Assembly (NCBI RefSeq): GCF_964355755.1
Contig: NC_092680.1
Location: 4,255,001 to 4,319,000, forward strand
Direction: 5' to 3'
Length of the DNA: 64,000 bases
From: Antedon mediterranea
Lineage: Eukaryota > Echinodermata > Crinoidea > Comatulida > Antedonidae
Part shown: piece after piece, positions 22,402 to 64,000 of the stretch
Layout of the letters: each line of letters starts with the position of its first letter
Position numbering within the stretch: the first letter of the stretch is position 1
Notes under the pieces: generated by a model
Told to the model about the DNA's origin: nothing
The model's database searches: none
Seen by the model: only the letters and a program-made list of their open reading frames with translations
Made by a program: the position numbers and the translations under genes

Positions 22402-23471
22402 AACATTGCAACCTTAACACTCTAGGTGAATTATTTACTTAAATTGACACCAATAACGTAGGCCTACTCTGAAAGAGTTTTCAATTGTTTAATACAATCA
22501 TTAGTTATGTCTAAAGATTATTTCCAGATACTCTTTGCTGTTTTAAATAGACCTACGTTCATGCAGGGCAACGAGTATACGTATAGTGATGATAATTACG
22601 TTTTCTATGTTTAAATTTAATCTCGCACACAACTTTCAGCGTTAGACATTTGTTATTAGGTTACAGACACGTCAACATAAACATTTAGTAAACAAAAAGA
22701 ACTTTCGACAAAAAAAAACGCAGTACGATAAACAGTTTTCTATCTTCAAGAAGAAGCCATATATTTTTACAACTTCGTCTTATTGGTATAAAATACAATT
22801 CTGTCTTTTTATAAAAGCTGTTTTCAGTTGAAAATAAACTTTACAAAATAGGCAATGAGTTTTCCTTGAACTGTATCTATTCTCCTCCGTGCGTATGACG
22901 TCACAAATAGTATGTACAAAATGTTCAGAATAACAATTAAACGAAAATATACCTCTGTTTAGGCCTAATTTTTTTTCAATATCATCAACAATATTATAAT
23001 TTATATAATTTAAATATACATTAATTAAACATAATGAACGTTATAAGATATTTAATAAAACAAAAAACATGATGTTTACTGTATTACAAAAAATAAATAA
23101 GACTAGAGGTAGGCCCTCCTCAACAATAACGTTACACGGTTTTCTAAAGCCGTTTTAATTTTTCAGAGATCAAAATAAATATTACGTACGGTACTAAATA
23201 TACTTTAGGGTATCCTCTCATTGGAATGCAGGGATCAACGCTATGCTATTGGGTAACTTGGCAGAAAAAGTTAACATTGTATATGGACTACATAGCTTAT
23301 AATATACATTAACAAATAATAGACAATTTTGTTTATGGGGAATCTAAATACCAGAAAGTTAGAGGTAGATACAGTTAGCTTCCACGGTAAAAACAGAATA
23401 AAAAGAAATTATTTTATGGAACGGTTTTATGCCGTTCCAGGCCCACATACTGAAATGTTCGTTTCGTTAAT

Positions 23472-23663
23472 GGGCAACGAGTATACCAAGAAGATACGGG
23501 TACTGCAACGAGTATACGAAGAAGTTGCCGGTACTGCAACGAGTATACGAAGAATATACCGGTACTGCAACGAGTATACGAAGAATATACCGGTACTGCA
23601 ACGAGTATACGAAGAAGTTACGGGTACTGCAACGAGTATACGAAGAAGATACGGGTACTGCAA
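23472..23663 (+). repeat. 31-bp tandem array (six units)
   Basis: GCAACGAGTATACGAAGAA recurs at 23474, 23505, 23536, 23567, 23598 and 23629, an exact 31-bp period. Units alternate between endings of the AGTTACGGGTACT, ATATACCGGTACT and AGATACGGGTACT types. Because 31 is not a multiple of three, long frames stay open on both strands without being genes. The array ends 57 bp past the stop of transporter 1. GGGCAACGAGTATAC also occurs alone at 22567. Confidence 0.92.
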
Positions 23664-23719
23664 GAAATGACGTTTTTTACGTTTCTATTTATAAACAATT
23701 TATATTTGCACAAAAAGCG

Positions 23720-26700
23720 TTACACAGTTGTTACATATGCGTCAACCACCGTAATTTCCTCGTATGTAAACGCGATCGGCTGTTCGTCATAGAATTCTCT
23801 GTAAAGACGGTTTCTGCACCTCTTTCGGTATAATAGAATGTAATTGATTAAAGCTGCAAATACGTGTAAACCAGCGCATATGTAAAACGATAGGTCATAC
23901 GTCCCTGTCATTTCGTACATCATTCCTGAAAAGTGGAAAATAAACTAAATTAATCTTTTATAATATTAAATGTTATAAAGCTTGGTTCTCAATTGGACGC
24001 AACGCAACGTCGACGGCGCAACGCAAGTGTTGACAAATCACAAGCGACAGCCCGGATGATTCATCGCGTCGTGATTGGTCAAATTACTTGCGGTGCGCTT
24101 ACGTTCTTGTAGGAACCAAGCTCAATGTTTGGTTCCAACTAGACGCAAGCGCAACTTAAATGATTTTACCAATCATAATCAATTGATTATTTTCGTTTGC
24201 CATTGCGTTGCGTCTAAGTAGAAACCAATCTTTAGTTTGTTAAGCTCTGTCTACATTATCAAACTATAGTTTGACAAAAAAAATGTGTGATGTGCCCAAA
24301 TATGGTAGTGATATGCCCAAATATGGTAGTGATATATGCTCAAATATGGTAGTGATATGACATCATCATGTCCATATATGGGCGTCATTGGTTTCTTTCA
24401 TACGGGCATGTAGAGGTGTCCTTAATTCCTGATTTCATTTAATATACAAAATATATATTCAATATACAAGCGTATTTATTCAAAGTACGGCGATCTTATG
24501 TTAATTTCGATAGTGCTATAGTTCATTCTGAAAACTACATATAATAAAGCATTTTACGTAATATAAAAACTAAGATTAGTTTTTGTCATGAAATAACGAT
24601 TATGAGGAATTTGATAAACAGGCAAACTGCCTTAAAATGTCTTGACATGTTTTGAGAAACATCATCAGAACAGAAAACAATGCCTAGAGTACTTATATAC
24701 CTATAGGACAGGTTGTATGTAAATGAGGAAGTAATAATTTGTCATAACATGTTAATATGGACTGTAAAGTAACATACCTCCAACACCAGTAGCAAAAAGA
24801 CTACCGACACCAAAGCTACAGACGGCCATTGTACATGCCTGCACCTTGGATTCACTCGGAAAGACATCCACACAGAAGGCGTACTGGTAGCAGAGTGTTA
24901 CCGCTCTTGCAAGGCTTAGCACTAAAATGGAACAAAATTAGAAAAACAAATGTTGTTATGGCTGTAAAATGAATGTTTCCCTTAGTAGAAGAATGAGGAA
25001 ACATTGACAATCGTGACAAAGCAAATGGTATCATACAAATAAACATTCTGAAAATGTGAAACAAATATTTCTCGTTTTCTCATGATAAAATAATTATTAC
25101 CCATGAGGTGAAATTTGCATGTTCATAACATGAATTACACATTATTAAACAAACGAAATTATGCATATTCATAACATGAATTTACATATTAAACAAATGA
25201 AATTATGTATATTCATAACATGAATTTACACATTAAGCAAATGAAATTATGCATATTCATAACATGAAATATACATATTCAAAGGATGAATTAATGCATA
25301 TTCATAACATGAAACATACATTTACTTGTACGACTCATTTTAGACTATAACGTACAGTGTTGAAATTGTTTGAGGTTGATATATACATAATTGAGAAACA
25401 ATAATAACAAAAAAAAACAATCTAAAAAAAGACAGAAGAAAAGAAAGACATCGAATAATAACAATATTTCATCATCTTAAAATATATTTAAAAAATCCTG
25501 TTGGACATATGTTTACTGTGTATAATCCGGATTAGTGTACACGTGCGAATTTTGATGCTCAATGTTACACGTTATAATGCTTGTTAAAGGTTACCAGTTT
25601 TAATTTATAAGATAGTATATTTATGTTAAATATAGGTCTAGCCCAGTTTAAAAAAAAAACTTATAAATATTATTAAGTAGAATCCCCCTACAGTATGTGA
25701 TAACATAAATGCAATGCTGGTTTGTTTATTTTATTTATAAAAAAACATGCATTTTATTTAACAAAATAATATGTTATTAGTATCAATAATGTGTTAATTT
25801 TGAAGGAAATATCGGTTACTAAAACCATACCAAGGGATACAATTTTGCTTCAAATTTTCCCAAGCACTCATTTTGAAATTACGCTGAATTCCCACTTTTT
25901 TTTTTTTTGTTCTTTCAATTTTACCATTGGGGTGATGATGATGATTTAATAAATAATAATAATAAGACTGAATCTGTATAATTATCTTTCATTAGTAAAG
26001 AATGATTTATGGTACGGCAAACAGCCATCGTACTTAAATTGCCTTCTAAACTATGAAAGGCCAAGTGTGTAAAAACACACGCCCTTCACACGGTTACCTC
26101 GTAACGGTGATAGTGCGATGATGATAAATGATAGTCGTGGTCGATGTCATCGGTATAGTCGATTTATATGGAGATGTGTTTGCATATGTCAACGAACTCA
26201 ATAGTAACTCGTTTCGGTGTCGGTGGCGTCTTCAATACCCTCTCCATCGGTTACAGTCGGTTAGTGTTGTAAGCTTATCCAGTCTCCTTGGTCTCAATCT
26301 TCTCAGTTCACATGACATCAAAAGGAATTACGTCATACTTAAACGTTCAATGATCATCTAAGATGTAGTGACATGGTATTCCTTATGGATGGTATAAGAG
26401 ACGCGAGCGTAGTGGTCTGTCTGTTGGCAAACACGGTTTTGTTTTGGTACTTTACCCCACGGACCCCAACTGTATCTATCCTGTAGCAAACTTTTAAAAG
26501 AAGAAAGAATAAGATGTTTGAGGGAAAATTATAAACATGGTATTAGTAGAACTGAACCTTAGATAAACGCAGATGCAATGCACACAAGCTGCCTGAAATG
26601 TTTCTCACCTGCGTAACTTATAACAACACCTGTAAAAGTCGTCACGAACGGTAACGGTGCAATCGGAATTGCGCCGATTACGCACGCTAAGATGTACATC

Positions 26701-29700
26701 CCAGCAACACTGATGGGCAGTTTCCCGCCTAACAGCGTGACGAAAAGGCGGCCGAATAGATCGGCTCCACCCATTACACCAATTGCCATGGAACCTTGAT
26801 CATCACTGAATCCGACAGATTTCATAAAACTAGCCTAAAAAGAATAACAGAAACACATGCCATTACAATGTTTATATCCAATTTCATCTTGAATTATGAC
26901 ATGCGGCCGTCATACGAACAAAGGTTACGGACTCTAAAATTACCCACGATTTATAATAGACTTAAATTCATCCGTGTTAAATTTGTTGTGAAGTGCCTCT
27001 GTACAGATTTCCTAATTGATGGTGCTTTGCTACCTAAACCTGTTGAACGTAGAAGTGAGAAACTTGTTTTCAGACATGAGAAGTCTCGTACTAATGCTTT
27101 TTTTTATTCTGTTTTTATTTCATTTCCACGGATGTGGGATGAGATTCCGGTATATATAACAGACATGTTTATTTATAATGATTGCAATTTTTATTCTGTT
27201 TTATATAAATTCTATGTTACCGGGTTGTTAAATGTTTATCCTTGTTAATGTTATTTTGCCACCAGCACTATCAGGAGAGTCTTTTATAGCGATATTTTTT
27301 GCTTTTTGACAATCCGCCAGGATAGTGTTCTGCGCTTTTTCTCTGCTTGTTGTTGTTCTATGTAATATATGCTTTTTGTATTGTTTTTGTATTATTTTTT
27401 CTGGATAATAAATGAATATAATATGAATATGAATATACATAGCACTCTCAGATCTAATTGTATCAGTGCTGCATTGTATCATGTTTATTTAGTGTTTACA
27501 ATACTGGGTGTTTGGGGTTTATCTCAAACAACTTGATTTCGCGAGGAACGTCATTTCACAATGCATGATAGGAAAGGTTTGGGAGCAAACGTGACAACGT
27601 GTACATACAAACAAAAAATCACCTACGACGTACGCGTCGTGACGCTTGCTCCCAAACCCTTCCCATCATGCGTCACGCACGATATTTGCGATAAACCTTA
27701 TGGGCTATAGGTAGGTCTATTATTATCACTTTCACTGGTCTCTAGTTGAAAATGGCACTTCAGAAAAAAGAAGAATTTTAGTGAAATATTAAAATTAGAT
27801 CTACAATATACTTACTAAGTTAACATAGCTGAATACTACTGCAATACCCATTCCAGTGTAACTAAAAATAACAAGCCAACATTCAACTGTCTTTATAAAT
27901 TGGCAATATCGTTGAAGGAAAGACTTTGATTCCAATTCGGCATAGACCACTTCGACGCACACCTTCTTGGTGTCTTTACCACACCCTGTTTCCACGTCTT
28001 TAGAAGAGTACTCCTCAATGTTTTTGACAGGTTTGTAGTCAATGTTGTTGTTTTTTGGCGGCGATTTCAAAAATACACAACACACTAATCCGACGGGTAA
28101 GATTAGTCCAGACATAACACGTAGAGCTCCTCGCCATCCCACCGCGTTAAATAGAACTTCTAGGATTTGCGAAATTGCCATTATGCCTGTAAATAAAACA
28201 TATAATAACAAATAAATATTGTATGTATAATTACATATACACCTTAAACACGGTGTCAATCAATGACCAAAGTTGGAAAAGAAAAAAAGAAAAATCTGTA
28301 AAAGCAGCAGCTGATATAAACTACTTAAAAAATTACATACGTTTTCATAATGAAATGTAATAATGAAAAGTTGATGTTTGTTCTCACTTGGACGCAAACG
28401 CGCCGCATCCGAACTGTCCCTTGCGAGTATGAGGTCATTGCGTTGTTGTACGCGTCTGGTGGTGCGCTGGGGTAGACACGTCCGTAGCACGTAGCGAAGA
28501 TGTTATCGACGACATAAGTGAAAGCGAACTCGACACGGAAATTCAAACAGCGTGTGCATATTATGACAGTCACTCTTTCATTGCATTGTAGAACATCAAA
28601 AACAAATTTACTTATGTAAAATAGAAATACTGTGTAAACTGTCAGGGGAAAATTGCGAACATTTTGTATATCTTATCATTATTACTTAAGGAACGCGACA
28701 TTGCGATAATAATCGCAGTAATGAGCGTATTATAATATCTATTGATTTGATAAACTATATTGCTACTGTTCAAAGTTCATAACACGCACTCTAATACTGT
28801 CTAATTTAGTTGAATAAGGCAGATAAGTTATCAGGCTTATATAGATACATTGTAATTCTATGTGGAACGAGGGGTCCGTGAATTAAATGAGTTTACATAA
28901 AACAGATTGAGCAAAACTATAGTGATTGAATTTGAATTGAACAAAAACTTCAAACTAGGCCTATAAGGCATGCATATGTATACACAAATGTATCGTGCAT
29001 ATAAACGTACAAAAAAACGCGTCGTTTCGTTTTTGTGTGTTGAGGTATATGTGCGAAACTACAATAGGCCTAACTGTTCACAATAATCAGTGTATACAAA
29101 CGGAATATTATCTGCTTAGACAGCGGATTTGAATGGTTAAAAATAATATACCCTGGGAAAGCGATGGCGTACGGACAAAAGCGAATTATCTGTCAAGGAT
29201 GATCATCACGCCTAAATTAATGTGGAGGTTCCAGATTGAATAGATAGACTTGTTAAGAGTGGTTCATTTTCAAATTCAGATTGTACTTTAAGCTATAGAA
29301 TTTCGCCTTGACTTCGTCTTGTTCCAATATATCACGAAGATTATAAATGCAGGGTTGTTACTATATTTATAACATACGATCATATACCGGTACCCAACAC
29401 GTAGCAAATAAACTGTGATTGGTCCATTACAAATTTGCATACAATATAGTCGATGTTACGGTATATAAAAACAAACAGGAAAGTAAAGACTTAATTTCTT
29501 ATTGCATCCTATCCACTATAATGACAAACGTAGGACAGGTAGGCTTAATAATAAATATTAATGTTATTATTACTGTTCCCTGAGATGATGCAATTTTTAA
29601 ACAAGTTCAGTACCGAGGATTGCGTAATCTTAAACGTAATCGTTTCAACCTCGACCTTATATTAGTTTTGTTATTTTCATAAACAACAACTGCAGTCCTA

Positions 29701-32700
29701 TTAATGCAATGATTTGGTTGAGTTGTGGGGAATCCATTATGACTACTGACCTGTGAAAGTGACTATCAATAACGATTCCTATTATAATGGGCACACGTCT
29801 TTAAATTTGGAATCGCCCATGACCCATAGGCCTACATCATCAATACATTTAGTTTGTATTTTATAAATCATGTATGATTTAATATACACAACGTAAGGAA
29901 GAGCGACGCAAGTAGTTTGACCAATCACGGCATGATGGATCATTCAAACGGTCGCTTGTGATTGGTCAATTTATTTGCGTTTCGCCGACGCCTTTGCGTT
30001 GCGAAAAAAAAGGAGAACTAAGCTTGATTGAGAAAGGTTTGGTTCCGCAATTATGTGCTTGAAACTCCCAATTAGAGCAAACTCAATGAATACAAACGTT
30101 ATACAGCAACTTGACCTCCATATATATTTTTATCTGGCCTATAGAACTGGAAGAAAAAAGACATAATATAGGCCTACTATACTTACCAGCACCGGTTCCT
30201 GTGATGGCTAGACCAGTTGCTTTTGCGCATTTCTTTTCGTCGAAATATAAAACAATAAGGCTAAGGGACGGATGCTGTATAAAGTTAGTGCCTAAACCAA
30301 ATACGATGCTATAACTGAAGAAGATGTACTTGATTGCTGGCATGAATGACGTCACAAACAGACCTCCAGAACACATAAGAAAACCTAGGGCGACCACCCC
30401 ACGATATGTTATCCTTTCGGCTAAGTAAGTTGATAGAGGTGATGGAAGAGTCAACAGAGCAATTGCGATGCATCCTATCCAACCTGTAAAATAATAAAAT
30501 AAACTTATTATGTTAAAGATAATTGTCCCCCTAAAAAAATTGTTTGTTGTTGAATATGCCATTTTAATATCACATAAGAGTTATTCACACTTTGACCAAA
30601 AACTGGATCGAAAAAATAAATATATTTTCCAGGAAAAATGTAAGTTAAAGAATAAAATACCTAACTTGTCTGTCAGACATTGGTTTTTGGTTAAAATTGA
30701 CCGCTTTTTTTTTTTTGTGAAGTGAAATAATTGTTTTTGTTGATTTTTTTCTACAGAAGTGAATAACTTGATTAAAACTGTCAAATGGCCTATTCAAATT
30801 CTAATTAATAATCTTCATTTTTTGGGGGACAATACATGTTTAATAGCAAGGCTACTAACATTTTGTATGACAATTTTTTTGCACCGTCAAACAATATATC
30901 CATGTCCCCCAAAAACATGATTATTCAAATCAGACTTATATGTTGCATAAAAAACAAAGTAATTAATAATTGTCATAATTTCATTTAGGCTGTTCACAGT
31001 GAGTGCTTTACAATGTCACCTTGTGAAAATCGTAATCTGTTATAACAATGTGGGTCATTATTCTTTTTTTATCGGTAGAATTCTTGACATTCGGATAACA
31101 ATGCACGTCTAGGGTGAAATTGGTATCAAAACTATCAGTGTGTATATTGTAAGGGGGGGGGGGGATGAGAATAGATTTTAGCAATGCGTTAAGTATGATC
31201 TGAGTTGACTATTAGTCTATTCTTTTATTGTATCGTGTAAGAGATATGATCATTCTTGTGTAACGTTCTAATTGAAAGTACATTATATCTGTTTTAGAAA
31301 TCGACCTAGAATATTGTGAAAAAAATCCTGGGCAAAAAATATTATGGGTGGAATAGTTTGTGTTTTTCCGCACGGGTGCGAGTTTAAGCTTGTACCAAAT
31401 TTGACGCAACGTATTTTAGGAAGCGCACCGCACGGAATCGACAGCATCATCCAACATTATACCGTATATCGATCGCCTGTATTGGTAAAATCACATGCGT
31501 TCAAGTTAGACTTGCCCCAAGTTATATTTATTGTCTTATTTATTGATTTTTTTTTATTTCGATTTTTGTCTGAAAATACAAGCTCAAGCAGTATACGTAT
31601 GAAAGGCCATATGTGCCAAAACATTTATCTTTTTACTAATATTAAGTCAAGACTCCGTCTAGAACCCAGACTACGTTCACGTAGCCAAACAACGGAACCA
31701 AACAATGAATAACACGTAAACACATAGCATTACGCTGTGCAATATTATATGTTTTAAACAAAAGAATGTTGATTATTTTAATATTTGATAACTGATTTTT
31801 AACATAATATAAGGCACGATTTGTTAGCTACGATAACATCCCCAAGGAAACGAGAAGATTGACAACAGACTGGTCACACTTCCTTTAGGATTACGGTTTC
31901 CCAGCAACAGCTATGCTTACCATAATAATATGGCACAGCACATGTGATTCCAAAGGTAGGCCTACAGTACTGGATAACGACGACCAGGTAAAATATCAAG
32001 GTCTTATCCGACAACGATATTGGTCAAAATATTATCATTTGGTACAAACAAACACGGTGAGACATGGCCTTCATCAGAGATTAATACTAGATTATTATTG
32101 TGAACCCATGAACTCACCAGTATGAGACCATCAAGCGTCTGTTTAATATAGGTCTGGGGAAATACTGCACTTCAAATCACGCTGTCAAATTGCTACCCAC
32201 TAAAAAATAGTTTGATTTGATAGGGAGCTAAGTGTCGTCATACATCCAATTGGTTATACATTTTGTTGCATTATGTAACACAAATAGCTTTTTCGGCTGA
32301 CACTTGACTCTCAAAACAGTATCTCACATAATTACAAAAACAAAATTAATACCTACATTTTGATAATTAAATCATTGAGAGGCCTAAGACCTAAATACTA
32401 GACAATTGGGAGTATATACAGGTACAACTTTTTTACTACAGTACCTCGAGGAGAAGTACGTGTTGCCAATGTCGGGACTTCATTATAAAGGTTTCGATCC
32501 CAGAAGGTTAAATCCAAAAGATCATGAATTCAAATAGGCCCACAATTTTGCTTTATTTGTATTTTTTATACATCTCCACTTAAAACCGAATTAAATATTT
32601 GCTATAAGGCCTACGGACAGAGTGACAAACTAACCGCATGAAAAGAATGTGGTCAGCATAGTATAGGCATATTGATTGATTGGTTGATATTTTTAGACCT

Positions 32701-44913: not shown

Positions 44914-47900
44914 TTCAAATTAAAAGTTTATCTTATATTGTGAATGGTAATTTTACCATATTATTACAATGCAGACAAATGTGTATCATCTGTAAAAGAC
45001 TTTATTAATAATTTAATAATCTCCTAAACATGCGTAGTCGCGGTAAGTTCACCGATTCGATGACATTTTACAATTAATATGCATCATTTTTAGATTCTGT
45101 TGTTGATTTAATAACCAGGATTGTGTAAAACAGGTAAAATTTGTGCAATTAATCCACAAAGGCAATTTCAATATCATATTATATAAAACCAAATACGTTA
45201 TATTTTGTAATAACGTTATTATTTTATTTATGAGGTCGGGTTTTTTCCAGTTTGTGTTTTTGCATGGAAGTTCATCAGTCGGTTCATCTTATGAAATCTT
45301 ACTCTAAATACCACGTGTTATTTACTAGTGTTGATACGTACCAGGTCTACATAGAAGAACACAATGGCGATACCTAAGAACAGAAAAGCCGTAGATATCA
45401 GCCACGCGTTGAGCTCTTTTAGCAAGCTAACTGACTTCTGCGCAAAGCTCTCTCTCCTCATTGGCATTCGGATTTCTTTGACTGGGTTTACTTTCTTCTC
45501 AAAGACTTCATCAGCATCTTCAGTTTCAAAGGACTGCGATGGTGAGCCAAGAAAGATACAACATACCAATCCGTTAAACATTATGATGGCGGCCATGATA
45601 CGGAACGTCACACGCCATCCTAACATTTCTATGAGGGTTTCTAGTATGCCAGGAAATACCATCATACCTACAAAAAAAACACAAATTTTCCAAATTTTGC
45701 TGCAAATCTAACGTATGAGTGCGGAACATTTTGTTGTGAAGGCGGAATATTATTGTTGTAAGGGCGGAATATTATTGTTGTGAGGGCGGAATATTATTGT
45801 TGTGAGGGCGCTATATGGATTGATAAGTACAACTGATGTTGGATCTCAAACAAATAATACTGAAGTGAGATTAATTGTACTATATGAGACTTTGTATAAT
45901 TGACATCTGTTGAAGAAGCACGAAAGATAAGAAATGTTTGTTGTACGGCAAATAAATATTTGGTTTGAACTTTAAGCACGGTCAATATTAGGTGAATTCA
46001 ATAACACTTTAACCTTTATCGTTATTAAACAAAAAGTTGTCAAACTATTGTATTATTTTGCAAGTCATTTGCATACCAGAAGTAGATTTTAATTAGTTTA
46101 ACATATTGTGTTTAAACATTTCCATGTGCCTGAGTATCTCTAGGTAATTGTTAAAGTTACTTCGCCATGACAGCACAAAAGTACACCATTCGCGTCGAAG
46201 CGCGTATATGGAGGGTTACAATAATGTAATACAGGCGAGGTATTTAGTGTTTTTTGCAATAATTGTTAATTTTTAACCTTCATCGCGCGCGCGCATGGAA
46301 TTCTCTGTGTGGTATCAGTAAAGATAACCTAATGGTTAAATAGTAAACTTACCTAGAGCTGAGCCCAAGCCTACTGTACCGGTGGCCAATGCGCATTTAC
46401 TGTTTCGATACAAGTTTAGAATTGTGTTGTAGGAAGTAAACTGGACCATATTACCACCGATGCCCAGTGAAATACTGTATGTAAGGAATAGAAGAGCTGC
46501 AGATTGAACAAATGACGTCACGATGCAACCAATTGAACACAACGCAAGACCAACGATGATTATCGGACGATAACCAAAACGATCGAAGAGCGCTACCGTT
46601 ATCGGCGACGAGATAACGACAAGACTGATCGCAGCCGATCCGATCCAACCTAAACGAGAAAAAAAAAACAAGAATGATATTAGATAAGATTATTATATTA
46701 AAAATAAGAATATATACAACAATAAAATTAGTCATGTCAGTTCAGTCATGTTATGTTATGTTTTCAAAAATAGAAACATTTCAAAATAGGCCTATGCATT
46801 TTTATCAATTATTGTGTATAATAAAAACCCCTACTCCGAATCCTATTAATAAACATTTATCAATCATTTTAATTTCAATACGTATTTTTTCAAAACCAGG
46901 CACAGGGTCAAAGGTCTACTTATGCGAGTTTATTAACATTTCAAAAGGCAGAAGATAGCTGATATCTTATAATAAATGCGTCACGGGGACCATGGCAACA
47001 TGTATAATGTAATTCACTGTCAAGTAAAGAGCTTCTCTCTTCATATTCTAATCGCAATATCTTATCTCGTATCAATACGGTTTTGCTTAGTTCTACATCA
47101 TTTTTTGAATATTATCAGGTTCACCTGATAATAAAGTTTAATGTATAGGTTATATATAGTTATTTAATTACACAGATGCTATTGTAAAATGCTTCCTTAT
47201 TTGCATAATATAATAATACAATAATAATACATTTATTGAACACCTGTTTATTAGTTATTTGCATATCTATTTTTGAAAATAAAAAAGTTTTATTTATTTG
47301 TTTTAAATGCTTGCAATTATTCACATTTAAATTCAACGTCTGTTGGTCTAAACCTCTGTCTACACTATTACACTACTGTATTTTGAATATGGTTGTGATA
47401 TGCTTAAATATGGCAGTGATATGATAATCATCATTTCCATATAATATGGGCACATGTCTTTGTCGCATAAAGTTTGATAGTGTAGACAGAACTTTAGGAT
47501 AATTCAAATCAGCTGTTTATTTCAATTCATTTTTACCAATTTATTCACATTCAGAAATTGGATAATTCACAAACAAAACCAGTGTCCTAATTACCCTTCC
47601 GGTCACTTTATTTAGCAAAATGAAAAAAAAGGAAAGTTGTATTACTTATCCACGATTAGGCAATTCTTTTGACACATTCTCTAACATTGCCCGACTGTGT
47701 GCAAAACGTTTTTAAGTCTAAATTTCAATTTTTAGAAATTATTTATACACTCGTATCAACAGCTACTGTAATATGTTGAATTCATTTAATAAATTATTAT
47801 ACTTATGTATCTCTAACGTATGTATATATAATATAACAATAATGATATCGCTAAAAAAACGAAGTTTTGGTATTTAAATACACGGTTCTTTATTTTCAAT

Positions 47901-61829: not shown

Positions 61830-63413
61830 ATGTTATGCTGTCGATATATGTACGAGAAACAAAACAGAAGTGGAGTTGACGAAATGAAATTGTTTTGGAA
61901 ATATTGTACTGTGATATTGGCGTGTTTATTTTCATTTACGCTACTTTTCAGCAACGTAAACTTCACAATTGAGCGCGTGCGCAGAGATGATGTTCATCTG
62001 TATTTACCGCTAGGAAAATATGCCGGATCACGCGGCGAGTATTTTCGCTTGGTCGCTGCGCATGTCGAAAAGGAAGCGGCACAAATAGCTATTGGTATTG
62101 ATCTACATAGTTTTCATCAAATTGATGCGATGCCACCGCCTGATTACAGAACGACGACGAAGAGCAACTCCACTTTAATTGAAGATTTTTCTGTTAATAC
62201 AAAGACATCTCAACTTCAAAAAAAGTCAAAAAGAGAGGTGAATAATCGAGCTGGAGAAGTTCGCAAACGTGAAAATACTATTGTTATTCTTGATGAATTT
62301 GGAATGATTTCAGAAAGTAACCCTTCAAAACAGACTCCACCAAGCTCCGATGATTTAGAAATCAAAAACAGGTTTTATGCATCAAATGGTGTAGTCAAAA
62401 CATTGCCAAAAGCAAAACATAACTGTTTCAAAAAGATACTTCTTTGGGAAGACAGGTTGAGATATAATGCCCCAGAAGCCGCGGGTACATTCTTTTGTCC
62501 CGATATTTCTTGTAAAGTTCAAGTAAGTTACAGTAACGGATCTATTGATAAAATATCCAAAGCTGACGCAGTTGTTATACATCACAGCGCAAAGAAAGAC
62601 TTGCAGAAGATGATAACAAAGCGCAAAGTTGGTCAGAAATGGGTATTAGCAACAAGAGAGAGCCCCCTGCAATCATCAATAGAACCACCAGGCAACCTGC
62701 GGTCTGTGTATGACTGGGTAATGACTTACAGGCAGGGCGCTGATTTTAGCCTAGCGTGGGGTTATTTTGACCGCGGTGTACCGCAGTGGAAAGAAGGCGT
62801 TAATAGAAATTGGGCTAGCGGTAAAAACAGGTTTCTAGCGTGGAACAAATCAAATTGTAGCGACACGCCTTCTTCTTACATCGAGTTCGTCTCTAGGTTA
62901 AACAAGTACATGCCAGTTAATATACCGCAACAGTGTCGTTTAACTGATGGTAACACTGAGGAATGTCAGCAAAGTATACGACAATTTAAGTTTCTTCTTG
63001 CACTTGAAAACAGCGAATGTAAAGACTTTATTACGCAAACATTCTGGGAGACAGCACTAAAAAACGATGTAGTTCCTATTGTGTTTGGCCCACCGAAATC
63101 AAACTACGAGCGGATAGCTCCACAACATAGTTTCATACATCTTGATGATTTTACAAAAGTAGCCGATTTAGTAAAATATTTGAAAAAGTTAGACAATAAT
63201 GACACTTTGTATAATGAATATTTTTTATGGAAAAAGGAAGGAAAAGTAGTGAGTACAAAGGAATCTTGGACATTTAACTCTAGAGATAAAATGTGCGAAG
63301 TTGCTGGAAAACTTCGTAATCCGGGTTCAAATCAACCAAATATAGGCCTATACGATAAAATCATTGGTCCGTGGTGGAAAGGCTCGTGTGCAAAACGAAA
63401 ACTCCCAGGTTAA
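61830..63413 (+). CDS. GT10 alpha-(1,3)-fucosyltransferase-like type II membrane protein, intronless
   Basis: 527 codons in one exon. A short N-terminal tail, one membrane anchor (about residues 21-41, LFWKYCTVILACLFSFTLLF) and a long variable stem (about 45-195) are the layout of a Golgi type II glycosyltransferase. In the catalytic part, WVLATRESPLQ (271-281) keeps the ESP motif and DWVMTYRQGADFSLAWGY (295-312) is the NxTMSYRxDSD equivalent. FKFLLALENSECKDFITQTF (387-406), then VVPIVFGPPKSNYERIAP (414-431) and SFIHLDDF (434-441) form the GT10 core. The family norm at DYITEKxW is altered to DFITQTFW, losing the Glu-Lys pair. The family transfers fucose from GDP-fucose to N-acetylglucosamine on glycans. 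Met19 (61884) is an alternative start in better context and would leave a two-residue tail before the anchor. AATAAA follows 31 bp after the stop. Confidence 0.85.
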   Translation: MLCCRYMYEKQNRSGVDEMKLFWKYCTVILACLFSFTLLFSNVNFTIERVRRDDVHLYLPLGKYAGSRGEYFRLVAAHVEKEAAQIAIGIDLHSFHQIDAMPPPDYRTTTKSNSTLIEDFSVNTKTSQLQKKSKREVNNRAGEVRKRENTIVILDEFGMISESNPSKQTPPSSDDLEIKNRFYASNGVVKTLPKAKHNCFKKILLWEDRLRYNAPEAAGTFFCPDISCKVQVSYSNGSIDKISKADAVVIHHSAKKDLQKMITKRKVGQKWVLATRESPLQSSIEPPGNLRSVYDWVMTYRQGADFSLAWGYFDRGVPQWKEGVNRNWASGKNRFLAWNKSNCSDTPSSYIEFVSRLNKYMPVNIPQQCRLTDGNTEECQQSIRQFKFLLALENSECKDFITQTFWETALKNDVVPIVFGPPKSNYERIAPQHSFIHLDDFTKVADLVKYLKKLDNNDTLYNEYFLWKKEGKVVSTKESWTFNSRDKMCEVAGKLRNPGSNQPNIGLYDKIIGPWWKGSCAKRKLPG

Positions 63414-64000
63414 AACAAACTTAATTAACATCTAATAATATTGAATAAACGTTATTCCATCTTTTTTAAATTAAACTAATATTTAAGTATTTTTTTTCTT
63501 TTTTCTTTATAAACTTCTTTTAATATTAACTTTAATATATATTTTTATTAATGACCTTTTGTATTAACTTTTTTTTGTATTAAAGAAAAAAAAAAGAGAA
63601 CTATCGCATATCGAACTTTAGACAGAATTTGAATATAAACTTAAAACCCTCAAAACTTTCACGCTCTTGGCAGCTGAAACACACCAGGGTGGTGTAGCGA
63701 ATTTACTGTTGAGCCAGGTTGAATGCATTCCTAACATATGGGGTATAATAAAACAAAATTACCAATTACCATATTATGCCATAGTACATTATTCTTTTTC
63801 GCATCAGCAACTATCAGAGCAGGAAAGAGTAAAATTGAAATTGTAATTGTGCTCTTCCCTGATGATGAGTTTTTTTAAACCGTCGTTTCGCTTACGGTTT
63901 TGTAGACAAATGTAATAAATCCGGAATCGTCCATCGCAGTGGTTTTTTAAAAACTGTTTTATCTTCAACAAAACTACGAAATGATCTATTTGAAAGCTTG
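63414..64000. other. Downstream of GT10 gene
   Basis: AT-rich 3' flank with T and A runs (63483-63595). No coding exon that I can support. Confidence 0.5.
63444..63449 (+). terminator. GT10 gene poly(A) signal
   Basis: AATAAA 31 bp after the stop codon, followed by T-rich sequence. Confidence 0.55.

Follow-up and report, generated by a model that had tools for sequence, protein, structure and literature searches.

We know of no GT10 enzyme with a donor other than GDP-fucose. In the alpha1,3-fucosyltransferase (FucT) of Helicobacter pylori, Tyr246, Glu249 and Lys250 are donor-contacting residues (PMC11468063), and mutants of Glu95 and Glu249 are virtually inactive (PMC4202792); the initial annotation of the gene described here had named the Glu and Lys of this site as contacts of GDP-fucose in the H. 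pylori enzyme, and these two papers support it. Conservation of the donor pocket reaches 100% across all the human GT10s (PMC11949838), donor-site residues are conserved in brown-algal GT10s (PMC11468063), and motifs III-V are well conserved among the enzymes of schistosomes, worm, fly and human (PMC3655985). A search of the open-access subset of the literature returned no paper describing a degenerate Y-x-T-E-K motif or a GT10 pseudoenzyme. Non-catalytic function is on record in another family, since IRX9 (GT43) functions without catalytic residues (PMC4132061).

The window, a stretch of 64,000 nucleotides from Antedon mediterranea (contig 11 of the assembly, positions 4255001-4319000), contains a GT10-family open reading frame (61830..63413, + strand) of 527 aa in one uninterrupted frame. 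Both Pfam domains of the family are found well above their curated cut-offs: Glyco_tran_10_N (PF17039) on the acceptor side (aa 201-310; 62430..62759, +; 6.9e-15; 55.9 versus 28.7 bits) and Glyco_transf_10 (PF00852) on the donor side (aa 330-499; 62817..63326, +; 7.5e-47; 159.8 versus 23.9 bits). Translation likelier starts at Met19 (61884), just upstream of a hydrophobic segment, than at the beginning of the frame, which leaves 509 open codons. This segment, FWKYCTVILACLFSFTLLFSN (61893..61955, +), was read off the translation by eye and is a signal-anchor candidate; since Met19 precedes it, a type II Golgi topology is probable. An AATAAA (63444..63449, +), 31 bases past the stop codon, is a possible polyadenylation signal, though weak evidence of one because the DNA is AT-rich. 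Elsewhere in the window, two exon sets resembling MFS transporters (PF07690) are apparently tandem duplicates (27801-30580 and 45318-46689, - strand), and at 23323-23833 (+) there are overlapping open frames in which all three plus-strand frames spell the same short repeat (YEEVTGTATSIRR-like), as in a coding-like minisatellite.

What sets the protein apart is its donor site. The ITQT in place of Glu-Lys that was noticed initially is indeed there, at 63030-63041 (aa 401-404), in a GT10 member with an open frame; F400 directly precedes it, and the alignment places F400-I-T-Q403-T404 (63027..63041, +) where Y-[IV]-T-E-K is expected (H. pylori Y246, E249 and K250). The ESP, SNYER and FIH-DDF motifs pointed out at the same time are also present. 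The further statement, that the core is otherwise intact, was wrong, because the donor Tyr has become Phe400, the donor-site Arg (H. pylori R195) is Tyr350 (TAC; 62877..62879, +), and an invariant Gly is Gln367 (CAA; 62928..62930, +), the xYG loop reading IPQ. The TAC codon is at least two base changes away from any Arg codon, and the five replacements together need at least seven base changes. The H. pylori residues were placed on the window protein by a profile search of PDB sequences, which recovered the H. pylori numbering exactly and matched R195, Y246, E249, K250 and E95 with Y350, F400, Q403, T404 and E277. Accordingly, all four donor contacts expected of an active alpha1,3/4-fucosyltransferase are replaced (R195→Y350, Y246→F400, E249→Q403, K250→T404); Arg195 we take to be a GDP-fucose contact in structures 2nzx and 2nzy. 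For the Gly column we infer a role in donor binding from its conservation and its situation in the donor domain. Where the alpha1,3 motif is defined as FxL/VxFENS/TxxxxYxTEK (PMC8433944), the window protein reads FLLALENSECKDFITQT. "Glu-Lys swap" is too narrow a name for the feature, in which the GT10 donor contacts are replaced as a full set.

Other parts of the core are retained. E277-S-P (62658..62666, +) aligns with the H. pylori catalytic-base Glu95, and the catalytic base of an active alpha1,3/4-fucosyltransferase is thus in place. IHH (aa 250-252; 62577..62585, +) matches the start of the alpha1,3/4-FUT motif II, [FIV]HH; relative to the complete lactosamine-acceptor form, [FIV]HH[RW][ED], it is followed by S-A rather than [RW][ED], and the protein reads IHHS at the position where the protein O-fucosyltransferases FUT10/FUT11 (POFUT3/4) have FYGTD (motif definitions from PMC11949838). 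None of the five paralogues from this animal that were aligned has HH there. E393-N394 of the ENS motif (63006..63011, +), SNYER at 63099, FIHLDDF at 63132, P416 and Y461 are all kept, as are the six Cys that are invariant among the animal's own GT10s.

How unusual this combination is was judged against 86 non-redundant GT10 sequences from prokaryote-genome loci, viral contigs and fragments of four solved GT10s, a set that is mostly bacterial, the animal comparison consisting of the own paralogues and the literature. The phage records searched contained no relative. In the reference columns the donor Arg is found in 71/73 sequences, the Gly in 75/75, the Tyr in 83/86, the Glu in 85/86 and the Lys in 84/86, and the columns of E393, N394, P416 and Y461 are conserved in 85/86, 86/86, 86/86 and 47/48, respectively. 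With Glu and Lys so nearly invariant among homologues, Q-T is not a chance reading. Single substitutions of the donor Arg, Tyr or Lys do occur in some bacterial GT10s, but of the 73 references that cover all five donor columns none departs from the pattern more than once: 67 are unchanged and six carry a single substitution, against five in the window protein. Over the nine near-invariant columns the window protein has changed at all five donor positions and at none of the other four. One reference, L079, differs at three of the nine columns, and it is a weak match with unfilled columns in a 2454-aa frame.

The protein can be expected to fold as its relatives do. An AlphaFold2 model of aa 180-527, built with a 20-row alignment, has a mean pLDDT of 79.7 and a pTM of 0.79; it is confident at the donor loops, and where the F400-T404 loop lies the averages over ten residues run from 80 to 95. 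All of the eight top-ranking VIA-align rows belong to GT10s (Z 13.3 to 25.5), so the predicted fold is the GT-B fold of a GT10 enzyme; among solved structures the best matches are FUT9, followed by plant and H. pylori GT10s. Human FUT9 (an alpha1,3-fucosyltransferase, PDB 8d0o/8d0w; Z 25.5, rmsd 3.5 A over 291 residues) is also the best sequence match in the PDB, and it shares with the window protein the two-domain GT-B fold and the ESP, IHH, ENS, SNYE-like and FIH motifs. FUT9 differs at the five donor columns, with R, G, Y, E and K against Y, Q, F, Q and T in the window protein, the FUT9 donor contacts being assigned via alignment with H. pylori FucT; phmmer sets enseckdFITQTfwe over ensihkdYITEKlyn of FUT9. 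H. pylori alpha1,3-FucT (PDB 2nzw/2nzx/2nzy; Z 13.9 to 15.3) likewise has the same fold, and its Glu95 has a counterpart in E277, but its GDP-fucose contacts R195, Y246, E249 and K250 have none left.

The assembly (354 Mb, 18 contigs) contains no mitochondrial COX1, and searches for GFP and for GH6, run without a positive control, gave no match. Six other GT10 places are present in the genome, and a look at Q-T in these paralogues, as had been proposed initially, found E-K kept in L002, L003, L006 and L007 and H-K in L004. The nearest relative by identity (35%) is L002 on contig 1, which has ESP and, unlike the window protein, a canonical donor site. L006 and L007 on contig 6 are FUT10/FUT11-like, read FYGTD, and have the canonical donor site and ESP. 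On contig 2, L003 is canonical at the donor site, its aligned stretch reading ENSEC-EYLTEKFW...VVPIVYG; this paralogue (L003:910-2226, +) has ECP for ESP, beside the catalytic-base Glu, with the donor site intact. L005 (contig 2, ~37.138 Mb) is a near copy of L003 with its coding sequence divided between two frames, and is probably a pseudogene. L004 (L004:1468-2793, - strand; contig 2, ~37.125 Mb) is an open frame of more than 440 aa with a damaged donor site. Like the window protein it is degenerate at the donor site, its own changes being R to M, N to D and E to H, but it keeps G, Y and K and is without IHH. A tree in which the animal rows had their donor letters masked joined L003 and L004 (99/96), and a clade of L004 with the window protein, which would have meant a shared origin of their losses, was rejected by the AU test (p-AU 0.008; long branches are a caveat). 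On these grounds, and with the same caveat, the donor-site losses in the two proteins are probably independent.

Several lines of evidence bear on whether the gene is alive. The C-domain identity between the window protein and L002 (41%) is near that between L002 and L003 (47%), and in a neutral simulation 5% substitution left the 509-codon frame open in 1.2% of runs, and 10% in 0/2000. General decay is unsupported, as the C-domain identity is near normal, ENS, P416, Y461 and the six Cys are kept, and the frame is open. The identity, the Cys set, the simulation and the at least seven base changes together argue that the gene did not drift for long. A pseudoenzyme would be expected to have lost conserved catalytic or substrate-binding residues while staying intact in other respects and under selection; of these features, the loss and the open frame are seen here.

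With a little more confidence than doubt, we consider the window protein to be an intact, Golgi-type GT10 pseudo-fucosyltransferase, probably a glycan-binding protein or a partner subunit; that it is no longer an ordinary fucosyltransferase is probable. The GDP-fucose site in the C-terminal domain would have been dismantled through the changes of Arg to Tyr, Gly to Gln, Tyr to Phe, Glu to Gln and Lys to Thr, whereas the Cys set, the catalytic-base Glu, ENS, the IHH of the acceptor side and the predicted fold are retained. GDP-fucose would then no longer be held productively and no fucose would be transferred, while the protein would still fold and reside in the Golgi. It might act through its surface, either by binding acceptor glycans in a lectin-like manner or as a partner modulating a catalytic GT10 paralogue. 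For such work by binding or partnership, IRX9/IRX9L (GT43) may serve as an in-principle precedent, as a glycosyltransferase-family protein that does not need its catalytic residues (PMC4132061), although it belongs to another family and pathway and its function was tested in vivo, whereas the window protein is known from sequence. The retention of Glu277 and ESP speaks against a pseudoenzyme, because a protein with no catalytic role at all would be free to lose them, and it leaves room for either a compensated fucose transfer or another donor. Both of these, as well as binding without catalysis, had been proposed initially for a GT10 with Glu-Lys replaced; that starting point stands, but the account was incomplete with three more donor-site positions changed, which lowers the chance of simple compensation, and raises that of a lost normal donor use, compared with what was then allowed.

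The protein could still be a fucosyltransferase, with reduced or specialised GDP-fucose activity, if the five changes were compensated by Arg370, three residues past Q367, or by another Lys or Arg near the loop. This would fit the retention of the fold, the catalytic base, ENS and the acceptor motif, and the single Arg, Tyr or Lys substitutions in bacterial GT10s suggest that single positions are not always essential. We nevertheless regard this as unlikely, given that no fully covered reference combines even two of the five changes and that loss of Glu249 alone is so damaging to H. pylori FucT (PMC4202792). Another possibility is that the pocket has been rebuilt for a donor other than GDP-fucose, with Glu277 still acting as the base of a working glycosyltransferase. 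The changes would then lie, as they do, on the donor side only, with the ESP base and IHH kept and the rest of the C-domain diverging at a normal rate. Still, we find this reading distinctly improbable. The pocket has lost the loop Gly as well as the Arg and the Lys, both of which would suit whatever nucleotide diphosphate the donor carried; nothing in the replacing residues (Y, Q, F, Q and T) points clearly to a new way of binding; and no GT10 with such a donor was met in the literature consulted. A recently silenced gene, in which the donor-site changes followed loss of function and the frame is open by chance, is very doubtful: GT10 copies do die in the contig 2 cluster, as the split L005 illustrates, but neutral drift would be less focused than changes at five of nine near-invariant positions, all in the donor site with the other four untouched, and would probably have brought the stop or frameshift that is missing here. 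A false Q-T through sequencing or assembly error or a shifted alignment hiding E-K is next to negligible, with nothing found in its favour, and both were rejected, the former by at least seven base changes across five separate codons in an intact frame and the latter by the ungapped E393-P416 block against L003 and by the E-K of FUT9 sitting over Q-T.

At stake is whether GT10 includes lectin-like or helper subunits, or a new donor specificity. The donor residues of the family are conserved in its human, schistosome and brown-algal members and are near invariant in our mostly bacterial set. The replacement of the whole donor set here, together with the partial loss in L004, suggests that this animal has repeatedly made fucosyltransferases non-fucosylating. 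Were the protein to use another donor instead, its donor specificity would be new for GT10, whose other members are described as users of GDP-fucose. A protein with PF00852 should not automatically be annotated as an active fucosyltransferase.
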